NCBI RefSeq assembly: GCF_964019385.1
Contig: NC_088654.1
Span: forward strand, 26,639,986 to 26,703,985
Source of the DNA: Sycon ciliatum
Lineage: Eukaryota > Porifera > Calcarea > Leucosolenida > Sycettidae
Length of the DNA stretch: 64,000 nucleotides
Reading direction: 5' to 3'
Under the pieces are notes generated by a model. The model was not told the origin of the DNA. It saw nothing but the letters and a program-made list of their open reading frames with translations, and searched no databases. The position numbers and the translations under genes were made by a program. The stretch's first letter is position 1, and each line of letters opens with the position of its first letter. Of the stretch, positions 21,722 through 52,361 are shown piece by piece.

Positions 21722-22773
21722 TTAAGGTGGCAGACTACCCAAAAATTCGCTGAAAATCGAATTTGTAAATTCATATTGAGTGCTACGTCAGTTGAAAGAG
21801 CATGAGTAGCTGCAAATTCTCTGAAAATTGTGTCCCTATCTGACCAGTCGTTCAAGAGTTATGGCCGAAAATGTGCCCTTGCAAGGAAAGAATTTTTTTG
21901 TTGCATGCTGTCATTTGTTGGCAGCACTGTATTTGAATGTGAGCAGACCGTGCGCAACTTGTCGTATTATGGAAACACGCGAAAGTGTGCAGAATTTTGC
22001 CCCAAGTCCAAAAAAGTCCAAAAAATCACGTTAAAAACCACGTATTGGGCTGCACGGCGGCGGGCGAAGCCCGCCGCCGTGCAGCAGGACTTTTGCCAGC
22101 ACCCTCGTGACGTTGCAGATATGTGGCTTGATTATTGTAGTTGACGTTGATTTAGTGACTTTGGCAAGTTTGAGTCGTGTCAAGAAGTCAGGTAGGATTC
22201 AGTACTAGGCAGTAGTGAAACGTGAGTGGCAGTCTTTGCCGGTTTCTGAGGGAATCCTGGATTTGGTGTGCAGCGCCGTGGAAATGGCTTGCTGTGGAGG
22301 TCCCAGCACTGGATGTTGTATCAAAGGTACGACCTCGTAGCACACCCTAAACCTAAAAAATTCAAAAATTGACTTGGGTCTGTGGGAGTCCGCGAGAGAA
22401 CGCCCACTCGTTCCGTTGTGACAGATTCCAGGGCCACGTTGAGGGGCCCTACCCCACCACCCATGGCTGCTTCTGGACTTGTTTTAGGTTTGGGTCCCGC
22501 GCACGGACAGAATGGGCACGAAAATGTGAAAAAAATGTAAATGCATTTGTTTGGCTCCTGGGTGGCTCGCACACCGTGGCACTATGCCGGAAATTTGAGT
22601 TTGTCCGGCCTGGAAAGCCTGTCAGTGAGGCGCAAGAACTTGTAAATCATGTCCTGAGGGCCAGCATAGTGGCAGGAGTGTGTGGTCAAAATTTCACTCA
22701 AATCCACTGAGAAACACCAAAGTTACGGTCAATTGAATGCCATATGAAATTTATGGGTAGGCTGCCCCCTTAA
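21722..22773. mobile_element. TTAA-flanked non-autonomous element A, copy 1
   Basis: Inverted ends, TTAAGGTGGCAGACTACCCA on the left and TGGGTAGGCTGCCCCCTTAA on the right, are each bounded by TTAA, the target of piggyBac-like transposases. At 1052 bp it has no transposase. It contains a GC-rich hairpin at 22049-22083. A second copy lies in inverse orientation at 26641-27984. Element B starts in the same TTAA that ends this copy. Confidence 0.8.
22049..22083. repeat. GC-rich perfect hairpin in element A
   Basis: A 16-bp perfect stem (CTGCACGGCGGCGGGC) with a 3-base GAA loop. The second copy of element A (27633-27667) keeps the structure with a few mismatches. Confidence 0.9.
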
Positions 22774-23637
22774 AGGGGAAGTATACCCTAAAATCAAATT
22801 TTCACCAGTTGTAGTCTTTGGGGTGCTGAGTCGAATGGTCTTGGTCCGAGGAAGCTGAGACGCTCCCTTCCTACTTGAATCCCAATCGAACTCGCGCACT
22901 TCCACCGAAACTGGGTGACTGCGGCCTGCTAGATGGGATTTGTATGCAAAATGTCACTAAAAGCGCCATTTCGTTCTTATAAAAGCACGGATGACCGCGA
23001 TTGGCCCATATGTTGTAGTCTTTTGGACGCTGAGTCGACTGGTTTTGGTCCGAAAAGGCTGCGATGCAGCGTTCCTCCTTTATTCCCAATCGAACATGGT
23101 TGAACAAGCGGTCACGTGCTCCTGCGTACACCAGTCACCTGGTCACCGTGCCTGCAGGGTACAACTTACTAGCCTGTTTGACCTTTTTTGGTTGCAGTCC
23201 TGTCACTCGAGTTGAACTCGAGTTGAACCTTGGTGTGAAAGTTGTCGCCTGCTGGCGCGGTGACCAGGTGATTTGGGCACCCAGGAGCACGTGACCGCTT
23301 GTTCAACCATGTTCGATTGGGAATAAAGGAGGAACGCTGCATCGCAGCCTTTTCGGACCAAAACCAGTCGACTCAGCGTCCAAAAGACTACAACATATGG
23401 GCCAATCGCGGTCATCCGTGCTTTTATAAGAACGAAATGGCGCTTTTAGTGACATTTTGCATACAAATCCCCATCTAGTAGGGCGCAGTCACCCAGTTTC
23501 GGTGGAAGTGCGCGAGTTCGATTGGGATTCAAGTAGGAAGGGAGCGTCGCAGCTTCCTCGGACCAAGACCATTCGACTCAGCACCCAGAAGACTACAACT
23601 GGTGAAAATTTGATTTTAGGGTATACTTCCCCTTTAA
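22770..23637. mobile_element. TTAA-flanked long-palindrome element B
   Basis: 868 bp from TTAA (22770-22773) to TTAA (23634-23637). The ends read TTAAAGGGGAAGTATACCCT and the inverse AGGGTATACTTCCCCTTTAA. Almost the whole element is a palindrome: arms of about 390 bp differ by scattered mismatches and short indels around a centre near 23205-23223 with CTCGAGTTGAACTCGAG. It is a foldback MITE of probable piggyBac affinity. No coding role. Confidence 0.9.
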
Positions 23638-23887
23638 CTACCAAGAGGAAAAACAAAGACCACGATGGCAGGTTCAATGGAGTTGCTCAGAACAAGAGAA
23701 AACGCATGAAAATATTTGCGTGCGAAAAATACGTTTTTTGCACTCTTTCACTACGCTCAGCTGTGAAAAAACAAAAACGTTCACAGCTCTGTCGTTACAT
23801 CAAGAGGATAGAACAGTAGCAATACAAGAAGTAGCAATGATACCGTATGTCCACTACGCTGCATAATTATTATTTCTATAGGAATGA
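23638..23887. other. Spacer between element B and the methyltransferase gene
   Basis: 250 bp with no recognisable gene. On the minus strand it is the 3' flank of the methyltransferase pseudogene; no clear AATAAA follows the stop. Confidence 0.4.
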
Positions 23888-25578
23888 TTAGAAAGGACAC
23901 CAGCTATTGACACCGGGAATGTAGCCATGGTTGGTCATGACCTGAACAAACTGGCTCGCATCGCTTCCAAAGTAGGCAACACTGACTTGGTGGTGGTTGA
24001 TGGCATCATCATTGGTACTATCACCTGGCAAGTGAGACTCTAGTCAGTGGCTTCCGCCGAAAGCAGTGCGGGTATTCGAGTAGCTTGGGGAAGAAGCTGG
24101 AGAAGAATGCCGCATTCACAACGAACACTCCCGAGTCATACTCTCCAGCGTTGAACCTATCCATTGCTGCACCAACGTAGACTGCCAGTTCGTCATGGTC
24201 GTCAAAGCGGGGTCCGGAGAAGTTTCCCCAAACTGTTCCTCTCCATGGTTTCATGTATCCATGGGACATGTGCGTTGTTTCTGCATCGATGACACACTCC
24301 TATATATTTCTACCCTTCCTCTCTCCATACTTCTGTCCCCCCCCCACTCTCTCTCATTCCTTCTGTCGTCCACATGTATCAAAGGAGGCGAAATCGCCTG
24401 TTTGTGGTGCGACGTTAAATAAACTTCTACAACTCCTCGTGGCTTGTCTCCGCTGGGCACACGGACACATCAAAACCAGTCCTAACCAATCGCCTGGCAA
24501 TACCAGCCAGTCGTCCTGGTGTCACGGGTATTGGAAGAAGTGCTGGTAGTGGTGGTAATGCGTCGTCTGGTGAACGAACAGCAATGTCACCGTTTACATG
24601 CCGTTCATAATGTTGGCCGTGTTGCTGGTCATTGGCCATACCGTGGCCATTGTTACCACTGCTACTCATCACATGTCTGCTTGGGTGATTGCGATGTCTG
24701 CTTGGGTGATTGCGGCGCTTTGCTTGACCTGCGTGTGTCGTCCGACTGTTGGTCTCGAACATTGGTTGCTCATCGGCGTCGTCATCAGTGTAGCTGTAGG
24801 CACCATTGTAATCAACATCGCCATGCGCCTCACAGTCGATATCATGTTGCTCGGCTTGAGAGTAACCAACGAATCTGCGCGCACGTTCCCGAACTGAACG
24901 CCTGCGCTTGTTACTGCTAGCCACCTGGGACAAAGCAGAGGAAGGTAGGCTCTCCTGCATTTCAAAGTCATCACCATGGAGATGATGCTTTGGCGGGGTG
25001 TCCGAATTGCTTGTGCCGTTGCAGAGTATAGATTTGCCTTTGGCCAGAATCTCCTTTGCTGTCAATTGATGTATGTTCTCTGGTGGTGTTGATTCCAGAA
25101 TTGCTTTCCAGAGCTGAAACACCTTCACTCCATTGTCTTCCAAGGAAATCCTATTGAACACTCGGAAATGCGACAAAGTCGTCGGAACTAACATGTTGGG
25201 GTCTTGACTGCGGATCATTCGTACTATCTTGTACCCGCGAATATACTCATAGACGTTGCTTCGTGTCAGGCCAACCTCAGTTTTCGTCCACACGTGAAAA
25301 CAGCTAGGGCTTAGAAGATGCTCGTCGTATAGCATGGAATGGAGGGCTTGTCCTACGGCATAGTACGAACCACGTCCATTCTGCTTGATGATGCCTTTCC
25401 AGTGCAACAGCCTATCACCGACAGTCTGCGCCGTTAGTGCCGGAGCTACTCCATCACTGATTGCTGGCGATTGCGCCTCCAGTGATGGTGGCGAATCCCA
25501 ATTGACCATCACGTCCATCAGCACTTCATAAGGCGAGGTCGCCCCGTGATTCTGCACAACCTTTGCTGCGGTCGACAT
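23888..25578 (-). pseudogene. DUF3102-like / Dam-like DNA methyltransferase fusion, broken
   Basis: The first part (25578 to 24427, 383 codons, good Kozak context AGAATG) is open. Residues ~55-125 have the spacing of bacterial plasmid/phage DUF3102-type proteins (YYAVGQALHSMLYDE, then LTRSNVYEYIRGYKIV), and ~128-183 match the block that follows it there (LVPTTLSHFRVFNRI, LTAKEIL). Residues 224-235 are basic (KRRRSVRERARR), a possible nuclear signal. From ~350, TPGRLAGIARRL looks like the start of a Dam-type adenine methyltransferase. The frame resumes across an insertion at 24302-24437 with WRGTVWGNFSG, GVFVVNAAFF and YPHCFRRKPL, then needs a one-base shift near 24030 to reach VAYFGSDASQF and a stop at 23888-23890. 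The usual Asn-Pro-Pro-Tyr/Phe is replaced by Asn-Phe-Ser-Gly, so activity is doubtful. Family assignment is from remembered motif order; no search was run. Confidence 0.6.
24302..24437 (+). mobile_element. Short retro-insert splitting the methyltransferase gene
   Basis: 136 bp including one copy of a 6-bp target duplication (ACTCCT at 24296-24301 and 24432-24437). Removing it joins the two methyltransferase parts in frame. The inserted 130 bp is CT-rich, then has a small hairpin (AGGCGAAATCGCCT, 24385-24398) and ends GCGACGTTAAATAAAC with an AATAAA at 24418. It looks like the 3' tail of a SINE or LINE. It cannot be a GT-AG intron, because no GT donor fits the join. Confidence 0.7.
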
Positions 25579-25631
25579 TCTCGCTTCAGACTCTCACCTT
25601 CATTCTTTCCTGAGGTTCTGCTTGGAAAGTT

Positions 25632-25904
25632 GAATGTCGTTGAGGTGCCGGTTGAGTTTCCGTCAGGCTTTTGATCAATGCACCTGTAAACAAGACAAAT
25701 ATACCAGTATTAAGTCAAGAAAAGAGTACTATGTGAAAACCTCTAGCTGCGAACAAGATAATAAGCCAGTATTCAATGTAGAAAGTATTCTTACCCATGA
25801 ACAAGACCCGAAACTCGTATGCCAGCGATGAAATATGAAAATTGATTGGATGTCGTTGAGGTCCCGCTTGCGTTTCCGTCAGGTTTTTAATCAATGCACC
25901 TGTG
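25632..25904. repeat. ~54-bp direct repeats around an S4 fragment
   Basis: A stretch starting GTCGTTGAGGTGCC and ending TCAATGCACCTGT (25635-25686) recurs at 25855-25906 (starting GTCGTTGAGGTCCC). Between them lie two or three S4 units (AACAAGAC, then GTAT and AAGTCAAGAAA). It sits about 60 bp upstream of the methyltransferase start codon. Confidence 0.75.
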
Positions 25905-25906
25905 CG

Positions 25907-26465
25907 TTTCGGTGTTATTGTGACAAGAAAGGAAATGACACTGATAGCACTGCAGTAGCTGATAAGCTGTAAAATCCAATCTTACCGATGTGTTTTGAGT
26001 TTCTTCTCGGAAGCGATCCCCTGGCACCTCCGATACGATCGATTCGATCCCGACCAGCTTCTCTACTACTGGTAGTTATTTATTTATTGCTCTAGACGCG
26101 GCTACTTCACAAACTTCTGTCTTCTTCTTCAATCTAGCCGAGATGAGCGCACCGTACAGCTCCGCAATAAAACAAGGTCCAACTGAAAGAACATTAGGCA
26201 TGACTGTCGTTTATGTACAGCTGCTGAAATACAGGCGAGCTTGTCCCATTGGTCACAGCCATGCTCTACACAGGGTGTATTCCGCTTTGGAACAATCATG
26301 ATGTCCAGTGGTCGCGGGGGAGTTAGACCCACTTACGTTCTCTGCTGGATTGTGCACTTCAGTATACGATGTAAATAAAATATTATTATGTAATGTCGAT
26401 TACAAAATCGTCATGTGTGCTTGTGGGCTTCTTCATTGCCGCTATTGTATGTATTATTAATGTAT
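25907..26465. other. Unassigned interval
   Basis: About 560 bp with no long open frame, no strong repeat and no recognised motif. Confidence 0.4.
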
Positions 26466-26469
26466 TCTT

Positions 26470-26608
26470 TACGTAGTCATGTGGTTTGCTTCATTGTCCG
26501 AAGAGTGCTCAATAATCATGTAGGGCAGAGCATTGTACACAAGAGAGAGATTGGAAGCTTTGTTACAACTCAGAGTTGTAACAAAGCTTCCAATCTCTCT
26601 CTTGTGTA
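26470..26608. repeat. Repeat with perfect 73-bp palindrome P2
   Basis: 26470-26570 repeats 20375-20480. 26536-26608 is a perfect odd palindrome (36-bp arms around A at 26572), starting TACACAAGAGAGAGATTGG and ending in its complement. It is the same arm as P1 but the centre is shorter. Confidence 0.9.
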
Positions 26609-26640
26609 ATGTATTCTTTATGTATTCTTTTTTGTATTCT

Positions 26641-27984
26641 TTAATAAGGGGGCGGCCTACCCATAAATTTCATATGGCATTCAATTGACCGTAACTTTGG
26701 TGTTTCTCAATGGATTTGAGTGAAATTTTGACCACACACTCCTGCCACTATGCTAGCCCTCAGGACATGATTTACAAGTTCTTGCGCCTCACTGACAGGC
26801 TTTCCAGGCCGGAAAAACTCAAATTTCTGGCATAGTGCCACGGTGTGCGAGCCACCCAGGAGCCAAACAAATGCATTTATAATTTTTTCACATTTTCGTG
26901 TCCATTCTGTCCGTGCGCGGGACCCAAACCTAAAACAAGTCCAGAAGCAGCCATGGGTGGTGGGGTAGGGCCCTTCAACGTGGCCCTGCAATCTGTCACA
27001 ACGGAACGAGTGGGCGTTCTCTCACAGACTCCCACAGACCCAAGTCAATTTTTGAATTTGTATAGGTTTAGCACGTGCACAGTGGGTTGGTCAAAGACCA
27101 TGATTGAGATACGAGAGGTACCTGGTTCAAGTCCTACCTGGGAGCGGTTTTTCCAGCCGTGCTGCTACCCACACCCAACTTGGAACTTGTGGCCAGGCAC
27201 AAGGGGTACATGGATGCAGCTAATGGGGTCGTTTTTGGCACTTGTGCCAGTGGTTGTGAGACTTGCCCACTCGCCCCCACCGTTAGGCGTTGCATCTGCC
27301 GCTAGGGTTTATCGGGTGTTAGCGGCCGTCGTGAGTTCCCTTCGGGAACGGATACGATAATTTACTTACTTACGTGCTACGAGGTCGTACCTTTGATACA
27401 ACATCCAGTGCTGGGACGTCCACAGCAAGCCATTTGCACAGCGCTGCACACCAAATCCAGGATACCCTCAGAAACCGGCAAAGACTACCACTCACGTTCC
27501 GCTACTGCCTAGTACTGAATCCTATCTGACTTCTTGACACGACTCAAACTTGCCAAAGTCACTAAATCAACGTCAACTACAATAATCAAGCCACATATCT
27601 GCAACGTCACGAGGGTGCTGGCAAAAGTCCTGCTGCACGGCAGAGGGCAAAGCCCGCCACCGTGCAGCCCAATACGTGGCTCAAAAACGTGATTTTTTGG
27701 ATTTGGAGCAAAATTCTGCACACTTTCGCGTGTTTCCATGATACGACAAGTTGCGCACGGTCTGCTCACATTCAAATACAGTGCTGCCAACAAATGACAG
27801 CGCGCAACAAAAACCTTTCCTTACAAGGGCACATTTTCGGCCATAACTCTTGAACGGCTGGTCAGATCGAGAAAGGATTTTCAGAGATTATGCAGCTGTT
27901 CATGCTCTTTCAACTGATGTAGCACTCGATATGAATTTACAAATTCGATTTTTCAGGGATTTTACGACCAGGCTGCCCCCTTAA
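26641..27984. mobile_element. Element A, copy 2 (inverted, SINE-interrupted)
   Basis: Reverse-complement copy of 21722-22773. Ends GGGGGCGGCCTACCC (left) and AGGCTGCCCCCTTAA (right). TTAA stands at 26641-26644 and 27981-27984; the left end has three extra bases (TTAATAAGG). A tRNA-derived SINE interrupts it at 27079-27371. Apart from that the two copies align over their full length with scattered substitutions. Confidence 0.85.
27079..27371 (+). mobile_element. tRNA-derived SINE in element A
   Basis: About 293 bp absent from the other copy of element A and flanked by a 6-bp duplication (ACGTGC at 27073-27078 and 27372-27377). It has an A-box-like GTTGGTCAAAGACC, a good B box GGTTCAAGTCC at 27124-27134 about 30 bp later, a body, and a 3' tail of TTAC repeats (27362-27373). 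These are the parts of a Pol III SINE. Confidence 0.8.
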
Positions 27985-28897: not shown

Positions 28898-29227
28898 TAA
28901 TCGACGTGGAGACAACAATGTTATAATAGCAATAAAAAGAACAAATTCTGCAGTCATCGCCACACTACAACGAAGTCATGAAAGTTTACCAGAATTAATT
29001 TTCTTGTCACATTCATCAGTGGAAAGTCGTGACTGAAGAGTAACCATGCTGAACAATGATTAAATATACATTCAATGATGTGTTACGAGAACAAAATACA
29101 GTGCCAAAATAGAAAGAGGGAAGGTGAGACAATAGCAGTGAAGTGAGAGCTAAGTGCAACGGTGGGTGAAAAACTAATAATTATAACGCTAAAACTGTGT
29201 AGTGAGACAAACAATCATGCTGTGCAC

Positions 29228-29617
29228 CTACGAAAACAATTTTAACGCAACTACATGTTTCTTCTGCTTACAAAGATCAGGCTTATGCAAACGAATACAA
29301 ACAGCCTCAAGTACTTTCAACTGACTAGCATACCGTGCACGACAAAGAACAGAAAAACTAAAATCATCATACACCTGCAGACACTTAGGGTGAGACAACA
29401 AGTGAAGAAAAACGGCAGACTCCTTGCGATCACAATCACCATCTGATTCCTCGTCTCCAACAACCGCAACCTCGTCCTCCGTTTCATCTCCCAACTCGTC
29501 CTCAGTGTCGTCCTCCGTGTCATTCTCCTCATCAACACTGATCGGTCCCAGGCTCGTTTGACGTTGTTTAACCTCTGTTGGTTGACTCCTCCTTTGATTT
29601 TGATGGCAACTTGTTAC

Positions 29618-29651
<34 letters not shown>

Positions 29652-29911
29652 AAATCTTGTGTTCCCAGTGTCCTCGCGGATGCTTGATCTCCAGTACTGT
29701 AATAATTCATTGAATAATTAGCCGTTGATCGTCTAGGTCTTTGAATGTTGATTGTGTTACTTTCTTTGTTGAATTCCGTTCCCTTCAGCCTTCTTTCTCG
29801 TTGTTCACAATCAGTGCTTGCCTCATCCATATATGCACGTGCCACCGACACCACAGACTCAGCCCCAGCACCGCCGATGATAGATGTAGGTGGCGGTTCT
29901 GGGGGAGGCAA
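29228..29911 (-). pseudogene. Penelope-like protein C-terminus, left arm
   Basis: An open frame of 227 codons crossing the loop into the left arm. It has a poly-Thr run from the CAA repeat, an acidic stretch (VDEENDTEDDTEDELGDE), and a compact C-terminal domain (AVFLHLLSHPKCLQVYDDFS, then LKVLEAVCIRLHKPDLCKQK). That last block resembles the end of GIY-YIG endonucleases of Penelope-like elements, where a Glu in LEA is catalytic. The GIY-YIG motif and reverse transcriptase are missing. The loop-coded N-terminus differs from the right arm and is probably not native. Confidence 0.45.
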
Positions 29912-29959
29912 CAGTACTGGAGATCAAGCACCGGCGAGGACACTGGGAACACAAGATTT

Positions 29960-30017
<58 letters not shown>

Positions 30018-30407
30018 GTAACAAGTTGCCATCAAAATCAAAGGAGGAGTCAACCAACAGAGGTTAAACAACGTCAAACGAGCCTGGGACCGATCAGTGT
30101 TGATGAGGAGAATGACACGGAGGACGACACTGAGGACGAGTTGGGAGATGAAACGGAGGACGAGGTTGCGGTTGTTGGAGACGAGGAATCAGATGGTGAT
30201 TGTGATCGTAAGGAGTCTGCCGTTTTTCTTCACTTGTTGTCTCACCCTAAGTGTCTGCAGGTGTATGATGATTTTAGTTTTTCTGTTCTTTGTCGTGCAC
30301 GGTATGCTAGTCAGTTGAAAGTACTTGAGGCTGTTTGTATTCGTTTGCATAAGCCTGATCTTTGTAAGCAGAAGAAACATGTAGTTGCGTTAAAATTGTT
30401 TTCGTAG
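29745..30407 (+). pseudogene. Penelope-like protein C-terminus, right arm
   Basis: Mirror copy of the left-arm frame; 220 codons, stop at 30405-30407. From TGDQAPARTLGTQDL onward it has the same protein as the left arm, with a longer poly-Thr run (18 codons against about 10). Two copies in opposite directions keep an open C-terminal domain, so duplication was recent or the domain was intact when copied. No promoter or ribosome start context singles out a start. Confidence 0.45.
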
Positions 30408-30708
30408 GTGCACAGCATGATTGTTTGTCTCACAACACAGTTTTAGCGTTATAATTATTAGTTTTTCACCCACCGTTGCACTTAGCTCTCACTTCACTGC
30501 TATTGTCTCACCTTCCCTCTTTCTATTTTGGCACTGTATTTTGTTCTCTTAACACATCATTGAATGTATATTTAATCATTGTTCAGCATGGTTACTCTTC
30601 AGTCACGACTTTCCACTGATGAATGTGACAAGAAAATTGATTCTGGTAAACTTTTATGACTTCGTTGTAGTGTGGCGATGACTGCAGAATTTGAACTTCC
30701 TAGTCAAA

Positions 30709-39800: not shown

Positions 39801-42800
39801 AGAAGAGCAGAAGAGCAGAGGACCAGAGGACATGAGGACCAGAGGACCAGAAGGACCAGGAGGCCCAGGAGGACCAAGAAGACGAGGAGGACCAGAAGGA
39901 CCAGAAGGACCAGGAGGACCAGAGAACCAGAGTCCCAGGACCAGAACCAGTACCAGGACCAGGACCAGCACCAAAACCAGGACCTGGACCAACACCAGGA
40001 GCAGGAAAAGGACCAGGACCAGGACCAGGACCAAGCCCAGGACCAGGACCAGGACAATGACCAGGACCAGGACCTCTGCTCCTCTGCCCTCTGCTCCTCT
40101 GCTCCTCTGCTCCTGGTCCTAGTAATGGTCCTAGTCCTCCTCCAGGGCCTGGTCATTTTCCTTGCCCGGGTCCCGGTCCAGGTCCTGGTCCTGATTCTGG
40201 TCCTGATCCTGGTCCTGGTCATTATCTTGATCCTGGACCTGGTCCTGGTTCTGATCCCGTTACACATCCTGGTCCGGGTTCTGGTCCTGGTGCTGGTCCT
40301 TGTCCTGGTCCTGGTCTTCCTGGTCCTCCTGGTCCTCTTGGTCTTCCTTGTACTCCTGGTCCTCTGATCCTGTTGTCCTCCTGGTCCTCCTGGTCTTCTT
40401 GGTCTTCCTGGTCCTCCGCTCCTCCGCTCCTCCGCCCCTCTGCTCCTCTGCTCGAATGCCCCACTGCTCCTCTGCTGGTATGCTCCACTGCTCTACGGCT
40501 CCTCTGCTCGTCAGGTTCTCTGGTCCTCCTTTCCTCCGCTCCTCCTTACCTCCGCTCCTCCGCTCCTCCACTACACCGCTCCTCCACAACCCTGCTCCCC
40601 TGCTCCTCTGCTTCTCTGCTCCTCTGCTCCTATACTCCCCTGCTCCCCTTTTTCTCTGATCCTCTGCTCCTCTGCTCCTCTGCTCTTCTGCTCCTCTGCT
40701 CCAGGACCAGGACCATGACAATGACCAGGACCAGGACTAGGACACGAACCAGGACCAGCGAGAGGACCAGGACCAGGGCCAGGGCCAGGCGCAGGACCAG
40801 GACCATAACCAAGACCTGGACCAGGACCAAGACCGGGGCCAGGAGCTGGACCAGGCCCAGCACAAGTACCAGAGGAGCACAGGAGCACAGGAGGAGAGGA
40901 GCAGAGGAGCGGAGGAGCGGAGGAGCGGAGGAATGGGGAAGCGCAGGAGCGGAGGAGCGGGACCAGGACCAGGACCAGAACCAGAACCAAGACCAGGACC
41001 AGGACCTGGACCAGGACCAGGACCAGGACCAGAGGAGCCGAGGAGCATAGGCGAAGTAGCGGGATCAGGACCAGGACCACGACCACGACCAGGATCTTGA
41101 CCAGGACCAGGACCTGGACCAGAACCAACACAAGAGGAGCAGAGGAGCACCGAAGCACAGGAGGAGAGGAGCAGAGGAGCAGAGGAGCGGAGAAATGGAG
41201 GAGCGGAGGAGCGCAGGAGCGGAGGAGCGGGACCAGGACCAGAACCAGGACCAGGACCAGGACCAATACCAGGACCAAGACCAGGACCTGGAACAGGACG
41301 AATACCAGGACCAGAGGAGCCGAGGAGCAGAGGCGCAGAGGAGCAGATGAGCAGAGGAGCAGAAGAGCACAGGAGCAGAGGAGCACAGGAGCAGGGGAGC
41401 ACAGGAGCAGAGGACCAGAGGAGCAGAAAACCAGAGGACCAGGAGGACCAGGAGAACCAGGAGGACCAGGAGGACCAAGAGGACCAGGAGGACCAAACCA
41501 GGGGACCAGAATACCAGAGCAAGAAGAGCAGAAGAGCAGAGGAGCAGAGGAGCAGAAGAGCAGGGGACCAGAGGACATGAGGACCAGAGGACCAGAGGAC
41601 CAGAAGGACCAGGAGGCCCAGGAGGACCAGAAAGACGAGGAGGACCAGAAGGACCAGAAGGACCAGGAGGACCAGAGAACCAGAGTCCCAGGACCAGAAC
41701 CAGGACCAGAACCAGTACCAGGACCAGGACCAAAACCAGGACCAGGACCAGGACCAACACCAGGAGCAGGAAAAGGACCAGGACAAGGATCAGCACCAGG
41801 ACCAGGACCAGGACCAAGACCAGGACCAGGACAATAACCAGCACCAGGACCTCTGCTCCTCTGCCCCTCTGCCCTCTGCTCCTCTGCTCCTCTGCTCCTG
41901 GTCCTAGCAATGGTCCTAGTCCTCCTCCAGGGCCTGGTCATTTTCCTGGCCCGGGTCCCGGTCCAGGTCCTGGTCCTGGCCTGGTCCTGAACCTGGTCCT
42001 GGTCCTGGTCATTATCTTGATCCTGGACCTGGTCCTGGTTCTGATCCCGTTACAGATCCTAGTCCGGGTTCTGGTCCTGGTGCTGGTCCTTGTCCTGGTC
42101 CTTGCCTGGTCCTCTTGGTCTTCCTTGTACTCCTGGTCCCCTGATCCTGTGGTCCTCCTGGTCTTCTTGGTCTTCCTGGTCCTCCGCTCCTCCGCTCCTC
42201 CGCCCCTCTGGTCCTCTGGTCCTCTGGTCCTCGCCTCGAATGCCCCACTGCTCCTCTGCTCGTATGCTCCACTGCTCTACGGCTCCTCTGCTCGTCAGGT
42301 CCTCTGGTCCTCTGGTCCTCCTTTCCTCCGCTCCTCCTTTCCTCCGCTCCTCCGCTACACCGCTCCTCCACAACCCTGCTCCCTGCTCCTCTGCTTCTCT
42401 GCTCCTCTGCTCCCCTGCTCCCCTTCTTCTCTGTTCCTCTGCTCCTCTGCTCCTCTGCTACTCTGCTCTTCTGCTCCTCTGCTCCAGGACCAGGACGAGG
42501 ACCATGACAATGACCAGGACTAGGACACGAACCAGGACCAGCGAGAGGACCAGGACCAGGTCCAGGGCCAGGAGCAGGACCAGGACCATAACCAAGACCG
42601 GGGCCAGGAGCTAGACCAGGACCAGCACAAGTACCAGAGGAGCACAGGAGCACAGGAGGAGAGGCGCAGAGGAGCGGAGGAGCGGAGGAGCGGAGGAATG
42701 GGGAAGCGCAGGAGCGGAGGAGCGGGACCAGGACCAGGACCAGAACCAGAACCAGGACCAAGACCAGGACCAGGACCAGGTCCTGGACCAGGATCAGGAC

Positions 42801-44705
42801 CAGAGGAGCCGAGGAGCAGAGGCGCAGACGAGCAGAGGAGCAGAGGAGGAGAGGAGCAGAGGAGCAGAGGAGCGGAGGAGCGGAGTAGCGGGATCAGGAC
42901 CAGTACCAGGACCAGAACCAGGTCCTGGACCAGGACCAGGATTTGGACCAGGACCAGGACCTGGACCAGGACCAGCACAAATACCAGAGGAGCAGAGGAG
43001 CACATGAGCACAGGAGGAGAGGAGCAGAGGAGCGGAGGAGTGGAGGAGCGCAGGAGCGGAGGAGCGGAACCAGGACCAGGGCCAGCACCAGGCCCAGCAC
43101 CCAAGACCAGTACATGGACCAGGACCAGGACCAAAGGAGCCGAGGAGCAAAGGCGCAGACGAGCAGAGGAGCAGAGGAGCAGAGGAGGAGAGGGGCAGAG
43201 GAGCACAGGAGCACAGGAGCACAGGAGCAGAGGAGCAGAGGAGCACAGGAGCACAGGAGCAGAAGAGCAGAGTAGCAGAGAACCAGAGGACCAGGAGGAG
43301 CAGGAGAACCAGGAGAACCAGGAGGACCAGGAGGACCAAGAGGACCAGGAGGACCAAACCAGAGGACCGGAGTACCAGGAGCAGAAGAGCAGAAGAGCAG
43401 AGGAGCAGAAGAGCAGAGGAGCAGAGTAGCAGAGGACCAGAGGAGCATAGGAGCAGATTTGCAGAGGGGCAGAGGAGCAGAGGACCGGAGCAGCAGAGGA
43501 CCAGTAGGACCAGAAGGCCCAGGATATCCAGGAGGACGAGGAGGACCAGCAGGACCAGGAGGACCAGGACCAAAGGACCAGAGTGCTAGGACCAGAACCA
43601 GAACCAGGAACGGGACCAGGACCAGGACCAGGACCAAGACTAGGACCAGTACCTGCACCACGACCACGACGAGGACCACGACCAGGACCTCTGCTCCTCT
43701 GCTGCTCCTCTGCTCCTCTGCTAATGGTCCTGGTCCTGGTCCTAGTCCTGGTCCTGGTCCTGGTCCTGATCCTGGTCCAGGTCCTGGTTCTGGTTCTGGT
43801 CCTAGCACTCTGGTCCTTTGGTCCTGGCCCTCCTGGTCCTGCTGGTCCTCCTCGTCCTCCTGGATATCCTGGGCCTCCTGGTCCTACTGGTCCTCTGCTC
43901 CTCCGGTCCTCTACTTCTCTGCCCCACTGCAAATCTGCTCCTGGTCCCTTTACTGGTCCTAGTCCTGGTCCTGATCCCGGTCCTGGTCCTGGTCCTGGTC
44001 CTGATCCCGATCCTGGTCCCGGTCCTCGTCTTGGTCCTGGTCCTGGTCCTGATCCTGATCTAGATCCTGGTCCTGGTCCTGGTCCTGGTCCTGGTCCTGG
44101 TCCTGGTCCTGGTCCTGGTCCTTGACCTGGTCCTGGTCCTGGTCCTTGTCCTTGTCCTGGTCCTGGTCCTTGGCCTGGTCCTGGTCGTGGTCCGGGTCCT
44201 GTCCTGATCCTGGTCCGGGTTCTGGTCCTGGTGCTGGTCCTGGTCCTGGCCATGGGGCCTTGACCTTGTTCTTGTCCTGGTCCTGGTTCTCGTCCTTGTC
44301 ATGGTCCTGCTCCTGGTCCTGCTCGTCCTCCTGGTCCTGCTGGTCCACCTAGTCCTCTTGGTCTTCCTGGTCCTTCTGGTCCTCTGGTCCTCCTGGTCCT
44401 CCTGGTCCTCTTGGTCCTCTTGGTCTTCCTGGTCCTCTGGTCCTCTGGTCCCCTGCTCGTATGCTCCACTGCTTCTCAGGTCCTGTGGTCCTCTGGTCCT
44501 CCGCTCCTCCGCTCCTCCGCCTCTCCGCTCCTCTGGTCCTCTGCTCGTATGATCCACTGATCCTCTGCTTTGCAGGTCCTCTGGTCCTCTTGTCCTCCTT
44601 CCCTGCGCTCCCCCGCCCCACCGCTCCTCCGCTCCTCCGCTCCCCCACTTCTCCGCTCCTCCGCTCCCCCACTTCTCCGCTCCTCCGCTCCCTTGCTCCT
44701 CTGCT
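33898..44705. repeat. S3 satellite, left block
   Basis: Low-complexity DNA built from GGTCCT/AGGACC and CTCCTCTG/CAGAGGAG words. The start (33898-34850) is a GGTGCTCCT-rich subtype with a ~217-bp repeat (GCAGTCCTGG at 34234 and 34450). From 34905 the array alternates between AGGACC-type and GGTCCT-type segments, so adjacent segments are mutual inverse repeats. The landmark AGGACCTCTGCT recurs near 38146, 40070, 41847 and 43685 (spacing 1.78-1.92 kb) with matching segment order between. No unit contains a stop codon in any frame, which explains frames up to ~1000 codons. Confidence 0.95.
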
Positions 44706-45421
44706 TAGGGGCGGATCCAGGGGGGTGCGAAGGGTGCAAATGAACCCGTCAGGATTTTTCAAAAAAAAAAAAAAAAAAAAAGGTCAGGCCAGGCCAGGCC
44801 CAGGCTCGCTGCGCGGATCCGCGGATGATTTGTGTGCAATCCCGTGATCGTTCTGGACACGTGCTCGCGCCAGGGCTGCACATTTGGAATAGAACTTTTT
44901 TGGAACTATTAAACTTACTTTTTCACCGGCAACAAACTCACTTCGAAGTTCTTTACTTTTGACGTTGCATGTTTCAGTTGTCGTGTTAGCTTCTTTCAAA
45001 TTCTCACTGCTTGTTCCGACTCCGTTTCCGTGCATGCTGAGCGGAGATGTCGGACACAGCTGGTGGACCAGCTGGTGAGACCATGGAGCCTGCTGCTAAG
45101 CGTCGTTGTGACAGCCATCATCCTTTTGACATTGGGCGATTTGCTGGATTAATGGAGAATGCCAGCAATGATGACATCAAGTCGCTCCTAGATAATGTTT
45201 GGAAGCCTTCGAACCGCATGGACTGCCCATCGACGTAAATTACTTGTGAATTTTGACATTCAATGTGTAACTAATCATACTACTCATCTTGGTGCTATGT
45301 GTAATTATGATATTATACAGTAACACACATAACATACTATGTCTTTGGTTTACTACTGCAAAAGAAAATATGTAAGTTTCATCCTCGCACCCCTCAGCTT
45401 TCGGGTCTGGATCCGCCCCTG
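44706..45421. mobile_element. hAT-like element with transposase remnant, in S3
   Basis: A 716-bp island inside S3. Ends TAGGGGCGGATCCAG (left) and the inverse CTGGATCCGCCCCTG (right) match at 14 of 15 positions. This terminal sequence type is common in hAT-like elements. Exact 8-bp duplications could not be confirmed, since the flanks are repetitive (CCTCTGCT against CTGCTACT). An A-run sits at 44761-44780. Confidence 0.75.
45047..45238 (+). pseudogene. N-terminal fragment of a hAT-type transposase
   Basis: 63 codons in good context (GAGATGTC) starting just after the central region of the hAT-like element. The end, DDIKSLLDNVWKPSNRMDCP, resembles the segment before the TTF-type zinc finger in animal ZMYM/TTF-like hAT transposases (pattern: Leu-Leu, Asn, Trp-x-Pro, Pro). 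The remainder of the transposase is absent. This could be a first exon left in a deletion derivative. Confidence 0.5.
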
Positions 45422-48322
45422 CTGCTACTATGCTCCCCTGCTCCTCTGCTCCAGGACCAGGACCAGGACCAGAACCAGCGAGAGGAGTAGGACCAGGACC
45501 AAGGCCAGGACCAGGACCAGGACCAGGATTAGTACCAGAGGAGCAGAGGAGCAGAGGAGCAGAAGAGAAGAGGAGCAGAGGAGCGGAGGAGCGGATTAGC
45601 GAAGGAGCACAGAAGAGGACCTGGATCAGGACCAAGACCAGGACCAGAGGTGCCGAAGAGCAGAGGAGATGAGAAGCAGAGGAGCACAGGAGCAGAGCAG
45701 CAGAGGAGCAGAGGAGCAGAGGACCAAAGGAGCAGAGGAGCAGAGAAGCAGAGGAGCAGAGGAGCAGAGGAGCACAGGTGCACAGGAGCAGAGGAGCAGA
45801 GGTGCAGTGGAGCAGAGAAGCAGAGAACCAAAGGACCAGAGGACCAGGAGTACTAGGAGAACCAGAAGAAACAGGATCACTAGGAGGACCAGCAGGACCA
45901 GGAGGACCAGGACCAAAGGACCAGAGTACCAGGAGCAGAAGAGCAGTAGAGCAGAGGAGCAGAGGAGCAGAAGAGCCGAGGAGCAGAGGAGCAAAGGAGC
46001 AGAGGACCAGAGGGGCATAGGAGGAGATTATAAGAGGAGCAAAAAGGCAGAGGACCAGATGACCATGAGGACTAGGAGGCCCAGGAGGACGAGGAGTACG
46101 AACCAGGAGGACCAGAAGGACCAGAAGGACCAGGAGGACCAGGAGGACCAGGACCAGACCCTCAGAGTGCCAGGACCAGAACCAGAACGAGAATAGGGAC
46201 CAGGACCAGTACCAGGACCAGGACCAGGACCAGGATCAGGACCAGGACCAGGACCAGGACCGGGACGAGGACCTCTGCTCCTCTGCTCCTCGACACCTCT
46301 GCTCCTCTGCCCCTCTGCTGCTCTGCTCCTGGTCCTGGTCCTAGTTCTCTTCCGGGTCCTGGTCCTTTTTCTGGTCAGCGTCCTGGTCCTGGTCCTGGTC
46401 CTGGTCCTCGTCCTGGTCCTTGTCTTGGTCCTGATCCTGATACTGGTCCTGGTCCTCGTCCTGGTCCTTGTCTTGGTCCTGGTCCTGATCCTGATACTGG
46501 TCCTGGTCCTCGTCCTGGTCCTCGGGTCCTCTGGTCCTCTGCTCTTCTGCTCCTCTAGTCCCGTGGTGCTCTGGTCATCCGGTCCTCCACCCCTCCGCTC
46601 CTCCGCCCCTCTGCTCCTCTGCTCCTCTGGTCCTCTGGTCCTCTGCTCATCTGGTCCTCTGCTCCTTATTTCTACTGCCCCTCTGCCCCTCCGCTCCTCT
46701 GGTGCTGGTCCTGGTCCTGTTCCTGATCCTGGTCCTGGTCTTAGTCATGGTCCCCATCGCGGTGCTGGTCCTCTGGTCCGGGCACTGGTCCTGGGTCTGG
46801 TCCTGGTCCTGGGCCTTTGGTCCGCCTGGTCCTCTGCCCCTCTGCTCATCAGCTCCTCTGCTCCTCGGTTCCTCTGCTCCTCTGCTCTTCTGCTTCTGTG
46901 CTCCTCTACTCCTCTGCTCCTCTGCTCCTCTGCTCCTCTGCTCCTCTGCTACAGTTCTGCTCGGCGCCTCTGCCCCTCTGCTCCCCTGCTCCTCTTCTCC
47001 TGTGCTTCTCTGCTCATCGCTCCTACGCTCCGCTGCTCCTCTGCGCCTCTGCTCCTCTCGTCTTAGTCCTGGTCCTGGTGCTGGTCCTGGTCATGGTCCT
47101 GTCCTGGTCCGGGTTCTGGTCCTGGTCCTGGTCCTGATCCTTGTCCTGGTCCTGGTCCTTCTCCTTTTCCTTGTGCTGGTCCTTGGCATAGTCCTGGTCA
47201 TGGTCCTGGACTGGTCCTGGTCCGAGTTCTGGTCGTGGTGCTGGTCCTGGTCCTGGGGCCTTGTTCTGGTCCTGGTCCTGGTCCTGGTCCTGGTACTTGG
47301 CCTGGTCCTTGTCCTGGTTCTGGTCCTGGTCCGTCTGGTCCTCCTGGTCCTTTTAGTCCTCTTGGTCTTCCTCCTCCCCCTGGTCCTCTGGTCCTTCTGG
47401 TCTTCCTGGTCCTCTCGGCCTTTCTGGCCCTCAGCTCCTCCGCTCCTCCGCTCATCCACTCCTCTGGCCCTCTGCTCCGCTGGTCGGAGGAGCGGAGGAG
47501 CCGAGGAGCGGGACCAGGACCAGGACCAGGACCAAGACCAAGATCAGGACCTGGACCAGGACCAGGACCAGAGGAGCCGAGGAGCCGGGGAGCAGAGGAG
47601 CAGAGGAGCACAGGAGCACAGGTGCAGAGCAACAGAGGAGCAGAGGAGCAGAGAACCAGAAGACAAGAGGACCAGGAGGATCAGGAGAACCAGTAGAGCC
47701 AGGAGGACCAGGAGGACGAGAGTACCAGGAGCAGAAGTGCAGAAGAGCAGAAGAGCAGAAGTGCAGATTAGCAGCGGACTAGGAGGATTAGGAGAACGAG
47801 AAGGACCAGCAGGACCAGGACGACAAGGAGGACCAGAACCAGAGGACCAGAGTACCATGACCAGAACCAGAACCAGGAGCAGGACCTCTGCTCATCTGCT
47901 CCTCTGCTCCTCTGCGCCTCTGCTCCTCTGCTCCTCTCCCCCTCTGCTCCTCTGCTCCTCTGCCCCTATACTCCTCTGCTGCTGGTCCTGGTCCTAGTTC
48001 TGGTCCTGGTCCTGGTCCTTTTCCTTGTCCGGGTCCTGGTCCTGATCCTGGTCTTTGTCCTGGTCCTCGTCCTGATCCTGATCCTGGTCCTGGACCTGGT
48101 CCTGGTCCTCGGGTCCTCTGGTCCCCTGGTCTTCTGCTCGTCTGCTCCCCTGGTCCTTTGGTCCTCCGCCCCTCCGCTCCTCCGATCCTAAGCCCCTCTG
48201 CTTCTCTGCTCTTCTGCTCTGTGGCTCCTCTGCTCCTCTGGTCCTGGTCCTGGTCATGGGCCTGATCCTGGTCCTGGTCCTAGTTAGGGTCCCGGTCCTT
48301 GTCATGGTGATCTGGTCCTGGT
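45422..48322. repeat. S3 satellite, middle block
   Basis: S3 resumes after the hAT-like element with the same strand-switching pattern (switches near 45450, 46270, 47485 and 47885). Subtracting the 716-bp insertion, the AGGACCTCTGCT landmarks at 43685 and 46269 are 1868 bp apart, i.e. one normal period. Confidence 0.93.
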
Positions 48323-48505
48323 TGTAACAGGTTTAATCAAACTTGAAAAGTAAGAGGCCTGGTTGAGCGTGCCTCGACCAGTTATATGCAAAATGTGATA
48401 GTATACATGTGGCAATGGCGCCAATGAAGGTGCTAATAGACAGGCGTAAGACGCATGAGGTGCGAGGGAGTGTAAAGTTATAGAGAACAGGGGAAAACTG
48501 TTACA
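48323..48505 (-). repeat. 3' LTR of the chromovirus
   Basis: Starts TGTAACAGG and ends CTGTTACA in plus-strand view; 8-bp inverted termini TGTAACAG/CTGTTACA with the canonical TG...CA. 183 bp is short for a Ty3 LTR. Confidence 0.95.
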
Positions 48506-48518
48506 TCATCCCCCTCCT
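48506..48518 (-). promoter_or_regulatory. Polypurine tract
   Basis: On the minus strand AGGAGGGGGATGA directly precedes the 3' LTR, the expected plus-strand primer. 48519-48707, between it and the pol stop, is the 3' untranslated segment, with nothing recognisable. Confidence 0.85.
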
Positions 48519-48707
48519 ATGGAGAGGAAGGAGCTTATAACCCAAATGCTCAAGTGGAATAGAGTACAATAAGCGCAGCAAACACGTGCGAGACGAAAAA
48601 AGGCTTCGCACTGAAGTAACACAATAAGACGACTGAAACTCCATGCAAATAAAGTGTAATAAGCTCAACAAATGTGTAAGGTGAAACTAGAAGTTCAACT
48701 GCAAAAC

Positions 48708-51700
48708 TCAGCGGGCAGAAGCCAAGGTTTTGTACTTCTGAAGTGGAACAATGTCATTACCAGATTCATCCAACAAATAATGTTCAGGCTCCCAAGTGGC
48801 ATCAGAGTAGCCTTGCCACTTGACTAGGTACTGAAGCTGATTCTGCCGGCGGCGGTGACTGAGAATGTTCTCCACCACATAGCGGGCATGACCATCAAGG
48901 TCCGTGATAGGCGGAGGCGTAGGCTGTCTCCTATTAGGAATAGCGTTCTTCTCGTAGGCACGGAGTGCCGACACATTAAATACCGGGTGACAGCGGCTGG
49001 TATGAGGCAACTTGAGCTTGTAGGCATTCGGGCCGACCACATGGGTTATAGGAAAGGGGCCAAACCACTTGGGGCGTAATTTATGGGATGGTCGGTCCCG
49101 AGCTTCAGGAGTCAGGAGGAAATCCCGGTAGACCATTACCAAATCTCCCACCTTCAGCTTTCCCTCGACCCTTGTCCGATCTGCATAGAAGGCCTGACGA
49201 GCTTGAGCTGCCACTAACGCATCTTGTGAGATCTTGACCGCGTCTTGTCTTGCTTGCAACCAATCAGCTGAATCTCTGCCTCCCTGAATAGGGTTGAGGA
49301 AGTCGGGTGGCGCTCTGGGATTTAGACCGTAATTTAAGAAGAACGGTGTGTTTCCTGTAGATGATTGAGTAGCGCTGTTGATAGAAAACTCACAGAGAGG
49401 TAGGAGCATATCCCAGTTATCTTGTTTATGATTTACAAAAGCCCTCAGCACATCCTCTACTATTCTGTTTACTCGTTCAGTTAGGCCATCTGTCTGAGGG
49501 TGATTGGCAGTACTAAATGCTAGTTTCGTTCCTAAGCGATCAAACAATTCCTGAAAAAATGCTGCCGTAAATCTTGGATCACGATCACATACAATACTAG
49601 AACTCAAACCATGAAGTCGAAATACATGTTGAATATACAGATCAGCACTTCCTTTAGCGTCAATAGTAGAGGAAGTAGGTGCTAAATGTACACACTTTGT
49701 CAAGCGGTCTACAAATACATATATAGCATCATGACCTGTATCGGTCCTAGGCAAACCCATGATAAAATCCATCGAGATATCCGCCCACGGCTGACTGGGC
49801 ACTGGTAAATTCTGCAAGAGACCAGTTTTTAGCTGGCCGCCTTTAACTCGTTGGCAGACGTCACATGACTTGACAAACGCCTTTACATCCAGTCCCATTC
49901 TGGGCCAATAGAAATATCTAGCGAGTCTGAAATAGGTGCGATCTCGACCGGGATGCCCCGCAGTCACACAGTCATGGTATTCTTGAAGCAGGGCGAGTCG
50001 GAGTTTGCTACTCTTTGGAATGCATAACCTGTTCTGTGGTGAAGATCTGAGATAAAGATAACCGGGTGTTTCATTTAGAAGGTAACGGTCGTGCAGATTG
50101 TCATGGCTTGAATTTTTCAGTCTCCTGATAATGGGAGCAAGATCCTTGTCGCACTTGTAACCGCTGACAATTAACTGCGCTAAGTCTGGATTAATCTCTA
50201 GGGTATGCTCTATGGCATTCAACTGAATGTTAGGAGGATAGGATGACCCGCCTATTTCAGAATCACTGAACAGATCTGGACGGCGTGAAAGCGGGTCGGC
50301 AATGTTTTTCTTTCCTGGTTTGTGAAAGACCGTAAAGTCATAGTCAGCTAAAAACTCTACCCATCTTGCCTCACGCTTGGTGAGAGTCGGTTTGGTTCGT
50401 AAATAGACAACACCCATATTATCAGTCATCAGGTCGAAAAGGCGGAATAGATAGATTCTCCAGCACTTTAATGCAAATACCACAGCCAACGTTTCCCTCT
50501 CGGCCGCAGTATAGTTGCGTTCTGCAGCTGACAGTTTCCGACTACAATAGGCTACGGGATGCAAATCCATATCTTCTCCCTGCTGCAGGAGCACACCCGC
50601 CACGGCAAAGTCACTTGCGTCAGTTTCTACCGTGAAGCTTTTCTCAACATCGGCCAGTTGCAACACTGGCGCCTCGAGTAATGCTGATTTTAGAGACTCG
50701 AATGCCTTCTGTCTAGCAGCGCTCCATTCAAAGCGTGAATTTTTTCCGGTGATTTCTTCTAATGGACGAGAGATGGTCGAGTGTCGATCTATGAACCTTC
50801 GGAAATAGTTTGCAAAGCCAAGAAACTTCCTCACATCAGTTACTGACGACGGAGTTGGCCATGTTTCCACAGCACTTATCTTCTTGGGATCAGGGGAAAT
50901 TGATGTGCCGTTGATTTTATGCCCCAAGAAGAGAACTTCTCTCACGCCGAATTCGCATTTAGACTGTTTGCAATACAGCTCACTATTTCTAAGTGTTTCT
51001 AGAACTGTTTGAAGATGATGCTGATGATCTTCCCAGGTCTTGCTGAAAACTAGAATGTCATCCAAGAATACTACAACGAATTTTCGGAGATGCGGTTGCA
51101 GAATAGAGTTCATGAGTGACTGAAAGGTGGCCGGGGCATTAGTCAGCCCGAATCCCATGACTCTAAATTGGAAGTGGCCGAACGGCGTATTAATGGCCGT
51201 CTTAGAAACATCCGAGTCTTGAATTCTGATTTGATTGTACCCCGACCGCAAGTCCAACTTGGAGAAATATGCACTGCCCTGGATCGTGTCGAATAAGTCA
51301 TCAATATTAGGAAGACAAGCTTTGTTTTTGATCGTAATTCTATTCAATTCTCGCCAATCGCACACCATTCTCAGAGTACCATCCGACTTTTTCACAAAAA
51401 ACACAGGTGCACCGTATGGCGACTTACTTGGCTCAATGAATCCCTTCTCAAGTAATTCTGACAGCTGTGACTGGAGCTCGTCCATCTCTGGTTTCGGCAG
51501 GCGGTAGGCGGGTCGAGACGGTGGTCTGGCTCCATCTTCTATCTGGATTTCATGGTCGACTGGTCTCTTCGGTGGAAGCTCATTCGGCAGCTCGTCTGGA
51601 AATAAATCCTGGTACCTCTTGAGCAGGTTCTGGATGTCTTGTTGCTCTGATTCCTGGAGTTGTGGCCCGGAACGATTCTCCTCGTTTGCAGCAGTGACCC

Positions 51701-52361
51701 ATGCAAGAAACCCCTCGGCTCCACTCCTCAGGGCATGACGAGCTTGTCGGCCACTGATAAACATGCTTTCCACAGATGGCCGGTCGGCTGTCGGCGGGTT
51801 AGCTGAAGGCAATTTGGCAACAAAGGGCTCACCGTCCAACTGAACTTCGTTCGTACGGACGTTGATGCTGGGGTTGTTCCTTGTAAGCCACGGCTTGCCA
51901 AGAATAGCGTCGTAGCGAGTCAGGGGATACACAGTAAAGTGCTGTTCCTCACTGAAGCCCCCGACTGTCACCCTTAGCGTGCGTGTGGAAATCTGCGGGA
52001 CCTCGCTGGTCGAGCCGTCCGCCAATGTTACGCTCAGCACTGCTGAGCTTGCATCCGTGTCAAGATGATGCTTTCGAACAAAACTGTCTGCAATGAAGTC
52101 ATGCGTCGAACCGGAATCTATCAGCATCACTGCACGGCGACCGCCGATCTTTCCCTGTATGCGCAGTAGGTCGTGTTCAGGTTCATTGCCGACGCTGACG
52201 TTGCTGACATGACACCTTTCTGCAACGGGACAATTTCCTGCAGCTATGGGTGTCTCCGGCTCCGTAGGCTCCTGGAGAGCAACGTCTTCAACCTCCAGAG
52301 CTCCGAACCGGTTAGCGACTGGTACCGGCGTGGGTGCTTGGGTCGTCGCCAGTAAGCGCAC
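48708..52361 (-). CDS. Chromovirus Pol polyprotein
   Basis: At least 1217 codons, entered from gag by -1 frameshift; the GTG at 52361 is not a start, as the frame is open back to about 52409. Domains in order (residues counted from 52361): aspartic protease DSGSTHD at 82-88; reverse transcriptase about 305-480 with FLDD at 432-435; RNase H about 575-690 (D581, E623, D647); integrase with zinc finger H796, H803, C833, C836 and catalytic D865, D926, E962 (35 residues between the last two); a GPF motif at 1101-1103; and a C-terminal chromodomain about 1159-1200 (YVVENILSHR, YLVKWQGYSDATWEPE). The chromodomain, with its aromatic residues, is thought in this group to steer integration toward methylated histone H3 in heterochromatin, which fits its landing in a satellite. 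No stop or frameshift is seen. Confidence 0.96.
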   Translation of the reverse strand: MRLLATTQAPTPVPVANRFGALEVEDVALQEPTEPETPIAAGNCPVAERCHVSNVSVGNEPEHDLLRIQGKIGGRRAVMLIDSGSTHDFIADSFVRKHHLDTDASSAVLSVTLADGSTSEVPQISTRTLRVTVGGFSEEQHFTVYPLTRYDAILGKPWLTRNNPSINVRTNEVQLDGEPFVAKLPSANPPTADRPSVESMFISGRQARHALRSGAEGFLAWVTAANEENRSGPQLQESEQQDIQNLLKRYQDLFPDELPNELPPKRPVDHEIQIEDGARPPSRPAYRLPKPEMDELQSQLSELLEKGFIEPSKSPYGAPVFFVKKSDGTLRMVCDWRELNRITIKNKACLPNIDDLFDTIQGSAYFSKLDLRSGYNQIRIQDSDVSKTAINTPFGHFQFRVMGFGLTNAPATFQSLMNSILQPHLRKFVVVFLDDILVFSKTWEDHQHHLQTVLETLRNSELYCKQSKCEFGVREVLFLGHKINGTSISPDPKKISAVETWPTPSSVTDVRKFLGFANYFRRFIDRHSTISRPLEEITGKNSRFEWSAARQKAFESLKSALLEAPVLQLADVEKSFTVETDASDFAVAGVLLQQGEDMDLHPVAYCSRKLSAAERNYTAAERETLAVVFALKCWRIYLFRLFDLMTDNMGVVYLRTKPTLTKREARWVEFLADYDFTVFHKPGKKNIADPLSRRPDLFSDSEIGGSSYPPNIQLNAIEHTLEINPDLAQLIVSGYKCDKDLAPIIRRLKNSSHDNLHDRYLLNETPGYLYLRSSPQNRLCIPKSSKLRLALLQEYHDCVTAGHPGRDRTYFRLARYFYWPRMGLDVKAFVKSCDVCQRVKGGQLKTGLLQNLPVPSQPWADISMDFIMGLPRTDTGHDAIYVFVDRLTKCVHLAPTSSTIDAKGSADLYIQHVFRLHGLSSSIVCDRDPRFTAAFFQELFDRLGTKLAFSTANHPQTDGLTERVNRIVEDVLRAFVNHKQDNWDMLLPLCEFSINSATQSSTGNTPFFLNYGLNPRAPPDFLNPIQGGRDSADWLQARQDAVKISQDALVAAQARQAFYADRTRVEGKLKVGDLVMVYRDFLLTPEARDRPSHKLRPKWFGPFPITHVVGPNAYKLKLPHTSRCHPVFNVSALRAYEKNAIPNRRQPTPPPITDLDGHARYVVENILSHRRRQNQLQYLVKWQGYSDATWEPEHYLLDESGNDIVPLQKYKTLASAR

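Follow-up and report, generated by a model that had tools for sequence, protein, structure and literature searches.

A sponge gene family combining a phage-type DUF3102-like block with a Dam-type block that has lost its methyltransferase motifs

The calcareous sponge Sycon ciliatum carries a multicopy gene family encoding a two-domain protein of phage type. One copy lies on the minus strand at 23888..25578 of the 64,000-nucleotide stretch analysed here (contig NC_088654.1, positions 26,639,986 to 26,703,985; hereafter the window). Its intact relatives encode, in a single frame, an N-terminal block (N-block) that resembles the DUF3102-like domain of phages and plasmids, followed by a C-terminal block (C-block) that resembles Dam-type N6-adenine methyltransferases, in which both signature motifs of the enzyme are replaced. 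We consider it likely that an animal ancestor acquired a phage-type gene for a DNA-binding and Dam protein, and that the gene then multiplied and was retained, its product now being a DNA-binding protein that is probably non-catalytic.

The peptides from which this two-domain make-up was first recognized, by reading the sequence alone, are all encoded on the minus strand between an ATG at 25578 and a TAA at 23888. Codons 1-383 form a single open frame (25578-24427). Downstream of codon 383, alignment with an intact relative shows the sequence shifted to other frames. A 136-nt insertion at 24302..24437, with AGGAG direct repeats on both sides, interrupts the C-block, and a 4-nt insertion within 24040..24052, near 24046, shifts the frame again. 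Because these two insertions break its C-terminal half, the window copy is a pseudogene, which corrects the sequence-only reading. The interruptions are lesions rather than introns, and the pieces between them are not exons, since the coding part of intact relatives is one open frame. Nor is the reading frame a product of chance, as all 16 other array copies are open and a diverged paralogue retains both blocks.

Within the window copy the N-block spans 25024..25416 (residues 55-185) and the interrupted C-block 23888..24522. They are joined by a variable, partly basic linker (24523..25023) with RNHPSRH heptads, which occur in two to four copies in the 16 array relatives. The nuclear-signal-like stretch proposed for this region is not conserved; the window copy has NKRRRSVRERARR where the array copy L002 has NKRRQPVWEHERRS. 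Upstream of the ATG, at 25600-25900 on the same strand, two similar stretches (GGTGCATTGAT...CCTGACGGAAAC), each preceded by AG, could be 5' untranslated exons.

When the genome from which the window comes (538 Mb in 313 contigs) was searched for relatives, 17 array copies turned up, 11 of them on contig C8 (2.99-3.13 Mb) and six, including the window copy, on C13 (26.66-26.78 Mb). The 16 copies other than the window's, all of which we read, are open, encode 519-555 residues and represent 15 distinct sequences. C4 holds two diverged paralogues, an open one of 616 residues (L009; hereafter the C4 protein) and another that loses its frame before the C-block (L010), and two fragments lie on C13 at 14.65 Mb and on C9 at 10.79 Mb. 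A paralogue retains the two blocks at 49% and 32% identity, and the intervening linker yields no alignment. All 17 array copies are on the same strand within their two clusters. Three copies on C8 are spaced exactly 6,440 bp apart, while other neighbours are separated by 9 to 65 kb. Over a compared length of 3,560 bp, two C8 units agree at 99.9%, and one C8 and one C13 locus have 7.5 kb in common at 99.1%, which indicates that the clusters exchanged or duplicated DNA recently.

The host is an animal, as the sequence-only reading had assumed: the genome contains 55 Wnt-family stretches, all above the cut-off, and such stretches are absent from all 14 control genomes. A repeat that adjoins the window copy is found again on C4 and at another place on C13, which speaks against contamination. 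Separately, contigs C36 (L020) and C311 (L021) of the same assembly carry canonical Dam genes amid phage-like or bacterial-looking genes and are probably contaminant or symbiont DNA.

The relationship of the C-block to Dam emerges at several levels of sensitivity. In a tblastn search of phage genomes with the C4 protein, the top match is a 'modification methylase' of Pseudoalteromonas phage KB12-38 (E 1e-8, 36% identity over 94 residues), followed by methylases of Alteromonas (2e-4) and Vibrio (7e-3) phages; an array protein compared with plasmids gives two weak matches only (E 4 and E 10). A 20-row profile of phage and bacterial Dams, searched with hmmsearch, recovers the C4 protein with an E value of 2.3e-15 and three proteins of the arrays with values from 9e-10 to 3.1e-8, as against E 66 for the best of 2,000 shuffles; the three remaining animal rows, which lack a full C-block, were not reported. 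Profile-profile alignment of the animal C-block with phage Dams (hhalign) gives a probability of 99.2% and an E value of 2.2e-19, while swapped controls reach 0.1% and none of 40 column shuffles exceeds 5.4%. Against sequences in the PDB the C-block has a single match, at E 0.41. By these comparisons the C-block is homologous to Dam-type proteins.

Dam-type enzymes bind S-adenosylmethionine and catalyse methyl transfer through a DLDPAS-type site and an (N/D)PP(Y/F/W) motif. In the animal C-blocks the former reads FDVSVCPAE or FTLSITPIE, and the NPPY or NHPF of phages has become NFSG (WGNFSG in the window copy) or NFTG. Both replacements are present in all 17 C-blocks read, in the array branch as well as on C4, and appear to have preceded the split of the two branches. 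By comparison, NPPY or NHPF is kept in 11 of 11 phage and bacterial rows that were picked without regard to that motif, the remaining aligned rows having been picked by the NPPY-type motif itself. With both signature motifs lost, the family protein most likely no longer methylates DNA. Alternatively, it could still be an active adenine methyltransferase with an unusual motif, as long constraint has conserved the C-block from paralogue to paralogue and the N of NPPY is retained in NFSG and NFTG. The replacement of the DLDPAS-type site and of the PPY positions throughout the animal rows, set against the unbiased phage and bacterial rows, makes an active enzyme highly improbable.

The N-block is matched less strongly. 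A 136-residue piece of it from the C4 protein finds the phage family PHROG 1733 at 3.9e-5; searched alone against phages and plasmids, the block gives a best E value of 0.03, and the three distinct proteins retrieved from these matches all hit PHROG 1733 in turn. A profile was built from the phage open reading frames (ORFs) described below, of which L070, L085, L110, L116 and L122 were dropped by hand, L099 and L119 for their short N-terminus, and then duplicates, leaving 53 rows. With this profile, four of the seven animal rows reach E 0.002-0.003 and the other three 0.06-1, and all seven outscore 2,000 shuffles. Aligned with the 53 phage domains by hhalign, the N-block gives 97.1% and E 1.2e-10 over 116 columns with the global option; without that option the values are 96.8% and E 2.2e-10, over 100 columns.

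An AlphaFold model of the window N-block, computed with 41 hand-chosen rows of the 53, has a mean predicted local distance difference test (pLDDT) score of 90 and consists of eight helices. A Foldseek search of the PDB with this model finds nothing below E 0.001. The Rubisco factor Raf1 is first (E 0.12), and DNA-bound SopB is seventh (prob 0.75, E 0.6). Among viral models the first match has E 0.005, with several DUF3102 proteins lower and weak (E 0.2-1.8). Large Pandoravirus proteins also occur among the fold matches (E about 0.3, prob 0.93-0.94). A profile of the N-block with its phage relatives, compared with PDB chains, places the ParB relative Noc first, weakly (E 0.02). The likeness to the ParB/Noc/SopB domain is weak, and Raf1 ranks above SopB by fold. 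As judged from these profiles and the model, the N-block matches the phage and plasmid DUF3102-like domain and is weakly ParB/Noc-like, probably a helix-turn-helix domain, with DNA binding as its probable function.

The order of the two blocks has a direct counterpart in phages. A scan of IMG/VR with FExYCxxRWG, a motif taken from the phage fusion protein L052, returned 71 loci and 66 ORFs with the motif. A methylase-type motif follows downstream in 15 of the 66; on reading, a Dam sequence is present in 12, since L094, L099 and L113 have the motif match without Dam sequence. The 12 fusions correspond to 10 distinct proteins, three being identical, and the Dam of L052 (= L081) is confirmed by Pfam at 5.7e-9. 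In the sponge, the N-block likewise precedes the Dam-type block in one frame in the 16 open array copies and in the C4 protein, so the arrangement proposed from the sequence, with its parallel in some phage proteins, stands for both blocks. The phage or plasmid fusions (such as L052/L081, L084 and L087) differ from the animal proteins in keeping NPPY, in having the DP site in eight of nine aligned rows and in their shorter linker, in contrast to the lost motifs and long variable linker of the sponge family. The Dam of phage KB12-38, the best tblastn match, has 204 residues, leaving no room for an N-block, and its motif is NHPF, as against NFSG or NFTG in the sponge family. Frames resembling a ParB-type N-terminal part plus Dam also occur in one prokaryote genome (L155, L158), a parallel pairing of a binder with Dam.

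A prokaryotic or phage-type origin, also part of the sequence-only reading, is supported by the tblastn, profile and hhalign results and by the phage fusions. The phylogeny agrees in part. In two trees, the animal C-blocks lie within the phage Dams beside the KB12-38 type (support 93/90 and 94/86), and DIRS retrotransposon rows group with one phage fusion (L061) apart from them (99/99 and 91/95). In the underlying alignment L034, L035 and six DIRS stretches matched no pattern, and L104 was not entered; L160, a wrong-frame match, was left out of the trees, and the second tree also omits two contig rows. The animal branch is 2.4-2.6 changes per column long, so that either the transfer is old or evolution was fast. 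From these data we infer a horizontal origin of prokaryotic or phage type, including the direction of transfer. As to possible sources, scanning prokaryote genomes for a motif yielded 25 loci, and of five such genomes that were then searched, three had a match. Of the pattern scans, one was without match, one gave three Dam loci, one the query itself only, and one, of prokaryote genomes, was again without match. The region 40000-48836 of phage T1, considered as a possible Dam source, has no methyltransferase annotated in it.

Several results weigh against an acquired phage-type gene kept by the animal. None of the family proteins scanned matches Dam (PF05869) or DUF3102 (PF11300) above the Pfam gathering cut-off, and direct scans of the window and of the relatives reported no other Pfam family above threshold either. 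The sequence-only reading had named the lack of such hits as grounds for giving up its claim, and taken literally this is the outcome; the more sensitive comparisons above override it. Of four phage N-blocks scanned, one hits DUF3102, below the cut-off (E 0.0043). The PHROG match is weak in other members of the family (0.0099 for the L002 piece from the array, 0.0042 for the L010 piece). Prokaryote genome searches found no close bacterial donor; in one class, four of 369 genomes match at E values up to 1e-10 (the centre genome among the four), and their Dams read NPPY or NHPF. When the animal rows are held together with the two DIRS rows, the grouping is not rejected by the approximately unbiased test (p-AU 0.078). 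Pairwise ratios of non-synonymous to synonymous change (dN/dS) are 0.6-1.08 among three array copies, 0.67-0.71 for the window copy and 0.51 for the C4 pair. The 16 array copies hold 22 synonymous and 62 non-synonymous variant codons, a ratio that is exactly neutral, and the probability that all 16 would lack a stop by chance alone is 0.06.

Between the C4 and array proteins, the proportion of synonymous differences is saturated (pS 0.76 and 0.83) and that of non-synonymous differences is lower (pN 0.34 and 0.46), which reflects long constraint. The family was thus retained for long, and its recent copies are without measured selection.

The p-AU value bears on a different origin for the C-block, in which the Dam came from DIRS retrotransposons and the gene is a domesticated DIRS fragment. 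DIRS elements carrying Dam are already known (PMC3783388, PMC6338049), and such elements are abundant in the same animal genome: a PF05869 search with E values allowed up to 1 returns 145 matches, many of which lie in long frames, and in the DIRS-like loci L022, L025 and L029 one frame resembles, by reading, reverse transcriptase, RNase H and Dam, overlapping one that resembles a tyrosine recombinase. The stronger argument against this origin is that an N-block precedes Dam in phages, whereas none was seen in the DIRS frames read. The DIRS Dam is part of a retrotransposon polyprotein, and the two aligned rows read NPPW and lack the C-terminal features of the animal proteins; WIN-x-A, P-x-CF and YLG/YFG are instead common to the animal C-block and phage Dams in the alignment. 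Among the 41 matches listed for the whole C4 protein, none falls at the listed places of DIRS Dams, and the unconstrained trees, with two DIRS rows, separate DIRS and L061 from the animal rows. Reading the frames of L013, L012 and L009 revealed none of the usual DIRS neighbours (reverse transcriptase, RNase H, tyrosine recombinase). A DIRS origin is accordingly very unlikely in our view, and a phage-type source for the whole protein is favoured.

A further question is whether the gene travels as cargo, or as the main gene, of an undescribed mobile element, the arrays being copies of the element. Its presence on four chromosomes, the near-neutral evolution inside the arrays and the retroelement-like frames near the second C4 copy (L010) would fit, as would the repeats around the window copy. 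Downstream of that copy, 21724..23630 contains a foldback element together with an arm of the long inverted repeats. At four of nine other loci read (L011, L012, L015 and L018), 304 bp of one arm recur at a distance of about 0.9 kb from the gene. The foldback repeat (22770-23637) has a 98% match on C4 (L009 856-1736) and a 94% match on C13 at 14.6 Mb (L016). The inverted repeats at 21742-27963 were considered as transposon ends and rejected, the long flanking pair being confined to the window copy. No other locus read has such a pair around the gene. In nine other array copies compared, the DNA of 21724..23630, with the left arm, is missing from its place, and 21723 and 23631 adjoin. The longest spanning pairs elsewhere are 42 nt (L011, L012), about 69 nt (L009) and 25 nt (L013), and the inverted repeats around the array genes in L011, L012, L015 and L018, at up to 42 nt, fall short of those of a terminal-inverted-repeat transposon. 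Each 6,440-bp unit holds one large gene, and the 17 array copies lie on one strand in two clusters. The L013 unit has no inverted repeats above 25 nt and no second ATG-started frame above 150 residues. The mobile-element cargo suggested by the sequence-only reading is thus not borne out; we regard it as unlikely and think it more probable that a host gene spread by duplication, both tandem and segmental.

Other repeats occur in the window. At 48708-53215 on the minus strand, long frames resemble, from their translations, a Ty3-type long terminal repeat retroelement (gag-like, 281 residues; pol-like, 1217 residues). It interrupts a mostly GC-rich (about 0.6) low-complexity repeat at 34000-62000 with long spurious frames in many reading frames. 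A near-perfect palindrome at 28937-30698 has 715-nt arms that are 99% complementary and separated by 332 nt; each arm carries the same frame.

In the literature, no animal protein of this make-up turned up among titles and abstract openings, a scope mostly outside subscription journals. In passages of a study of prokaryotic genes in a sponge genome (PMC4784904), methyltransferases are mentioned once, and phage and adenine not at all. A comparable animal case is N4CMT of bdelloid rotifers, a bacterial DNA methyltransferase that these animals have retained in their genome (PMC8885841). N4CMT belongs to the PF01555 family, has an added chromodomain and is reported there to write N4-methylcytosine (4mC), whereas the sponge gene has lost its enzyme motifs.

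On the reading preferred here, an ancestor would have acquired a phage- or plasmid-type gene for a DUF3102-like, probably ParB/Noc-like helix-turn-helix domain and a Dam-type methyltransferase. Duplication would have carried the gene to C4, C8, C9 and C13, with one branch giving rise to the near-identical arrays on C8 and C13. After loss of the DLDPAS-type site and NPPY, and most likely of methylation, the N-block may recognize a DNA sequence while the dead Dam fold adds DNA contacts. The outcome could be a nuclear, sequence-specific binder, repressor, silencing factor or reader; which DNA it would bind, and whether it acts against mobile DNA, are matters of guesswork. More tentatively, and with real doubt, we suggest that a phage two-domain methylase was domesticated as a non-catalytic, sequence-specific nuclear factor, in which reading or shielding of adenine sites may fall to the dead Dam fold, and that tandem arrays in concerted evolution may provide dose or diversity, perhaps against mobile DNA such as the Dam-carrying DIRS elements of the same genome.

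Bdelloid N4CMT (PMC8885841) is a precedent for the recruitment of a bacterial DNA methyltransferase into an animal lineage. In Sycon ciliatum, a whole phage-type protein, including its DNA-binding module, seems to have passed into the animal's genome separately from the Dam of retrotransposons, to have lost its enzyme motifs and to have multiplied. If expressed, the family would allow experimental tests of whether a phage enzyme has become a DNA-binding factor of an animal.
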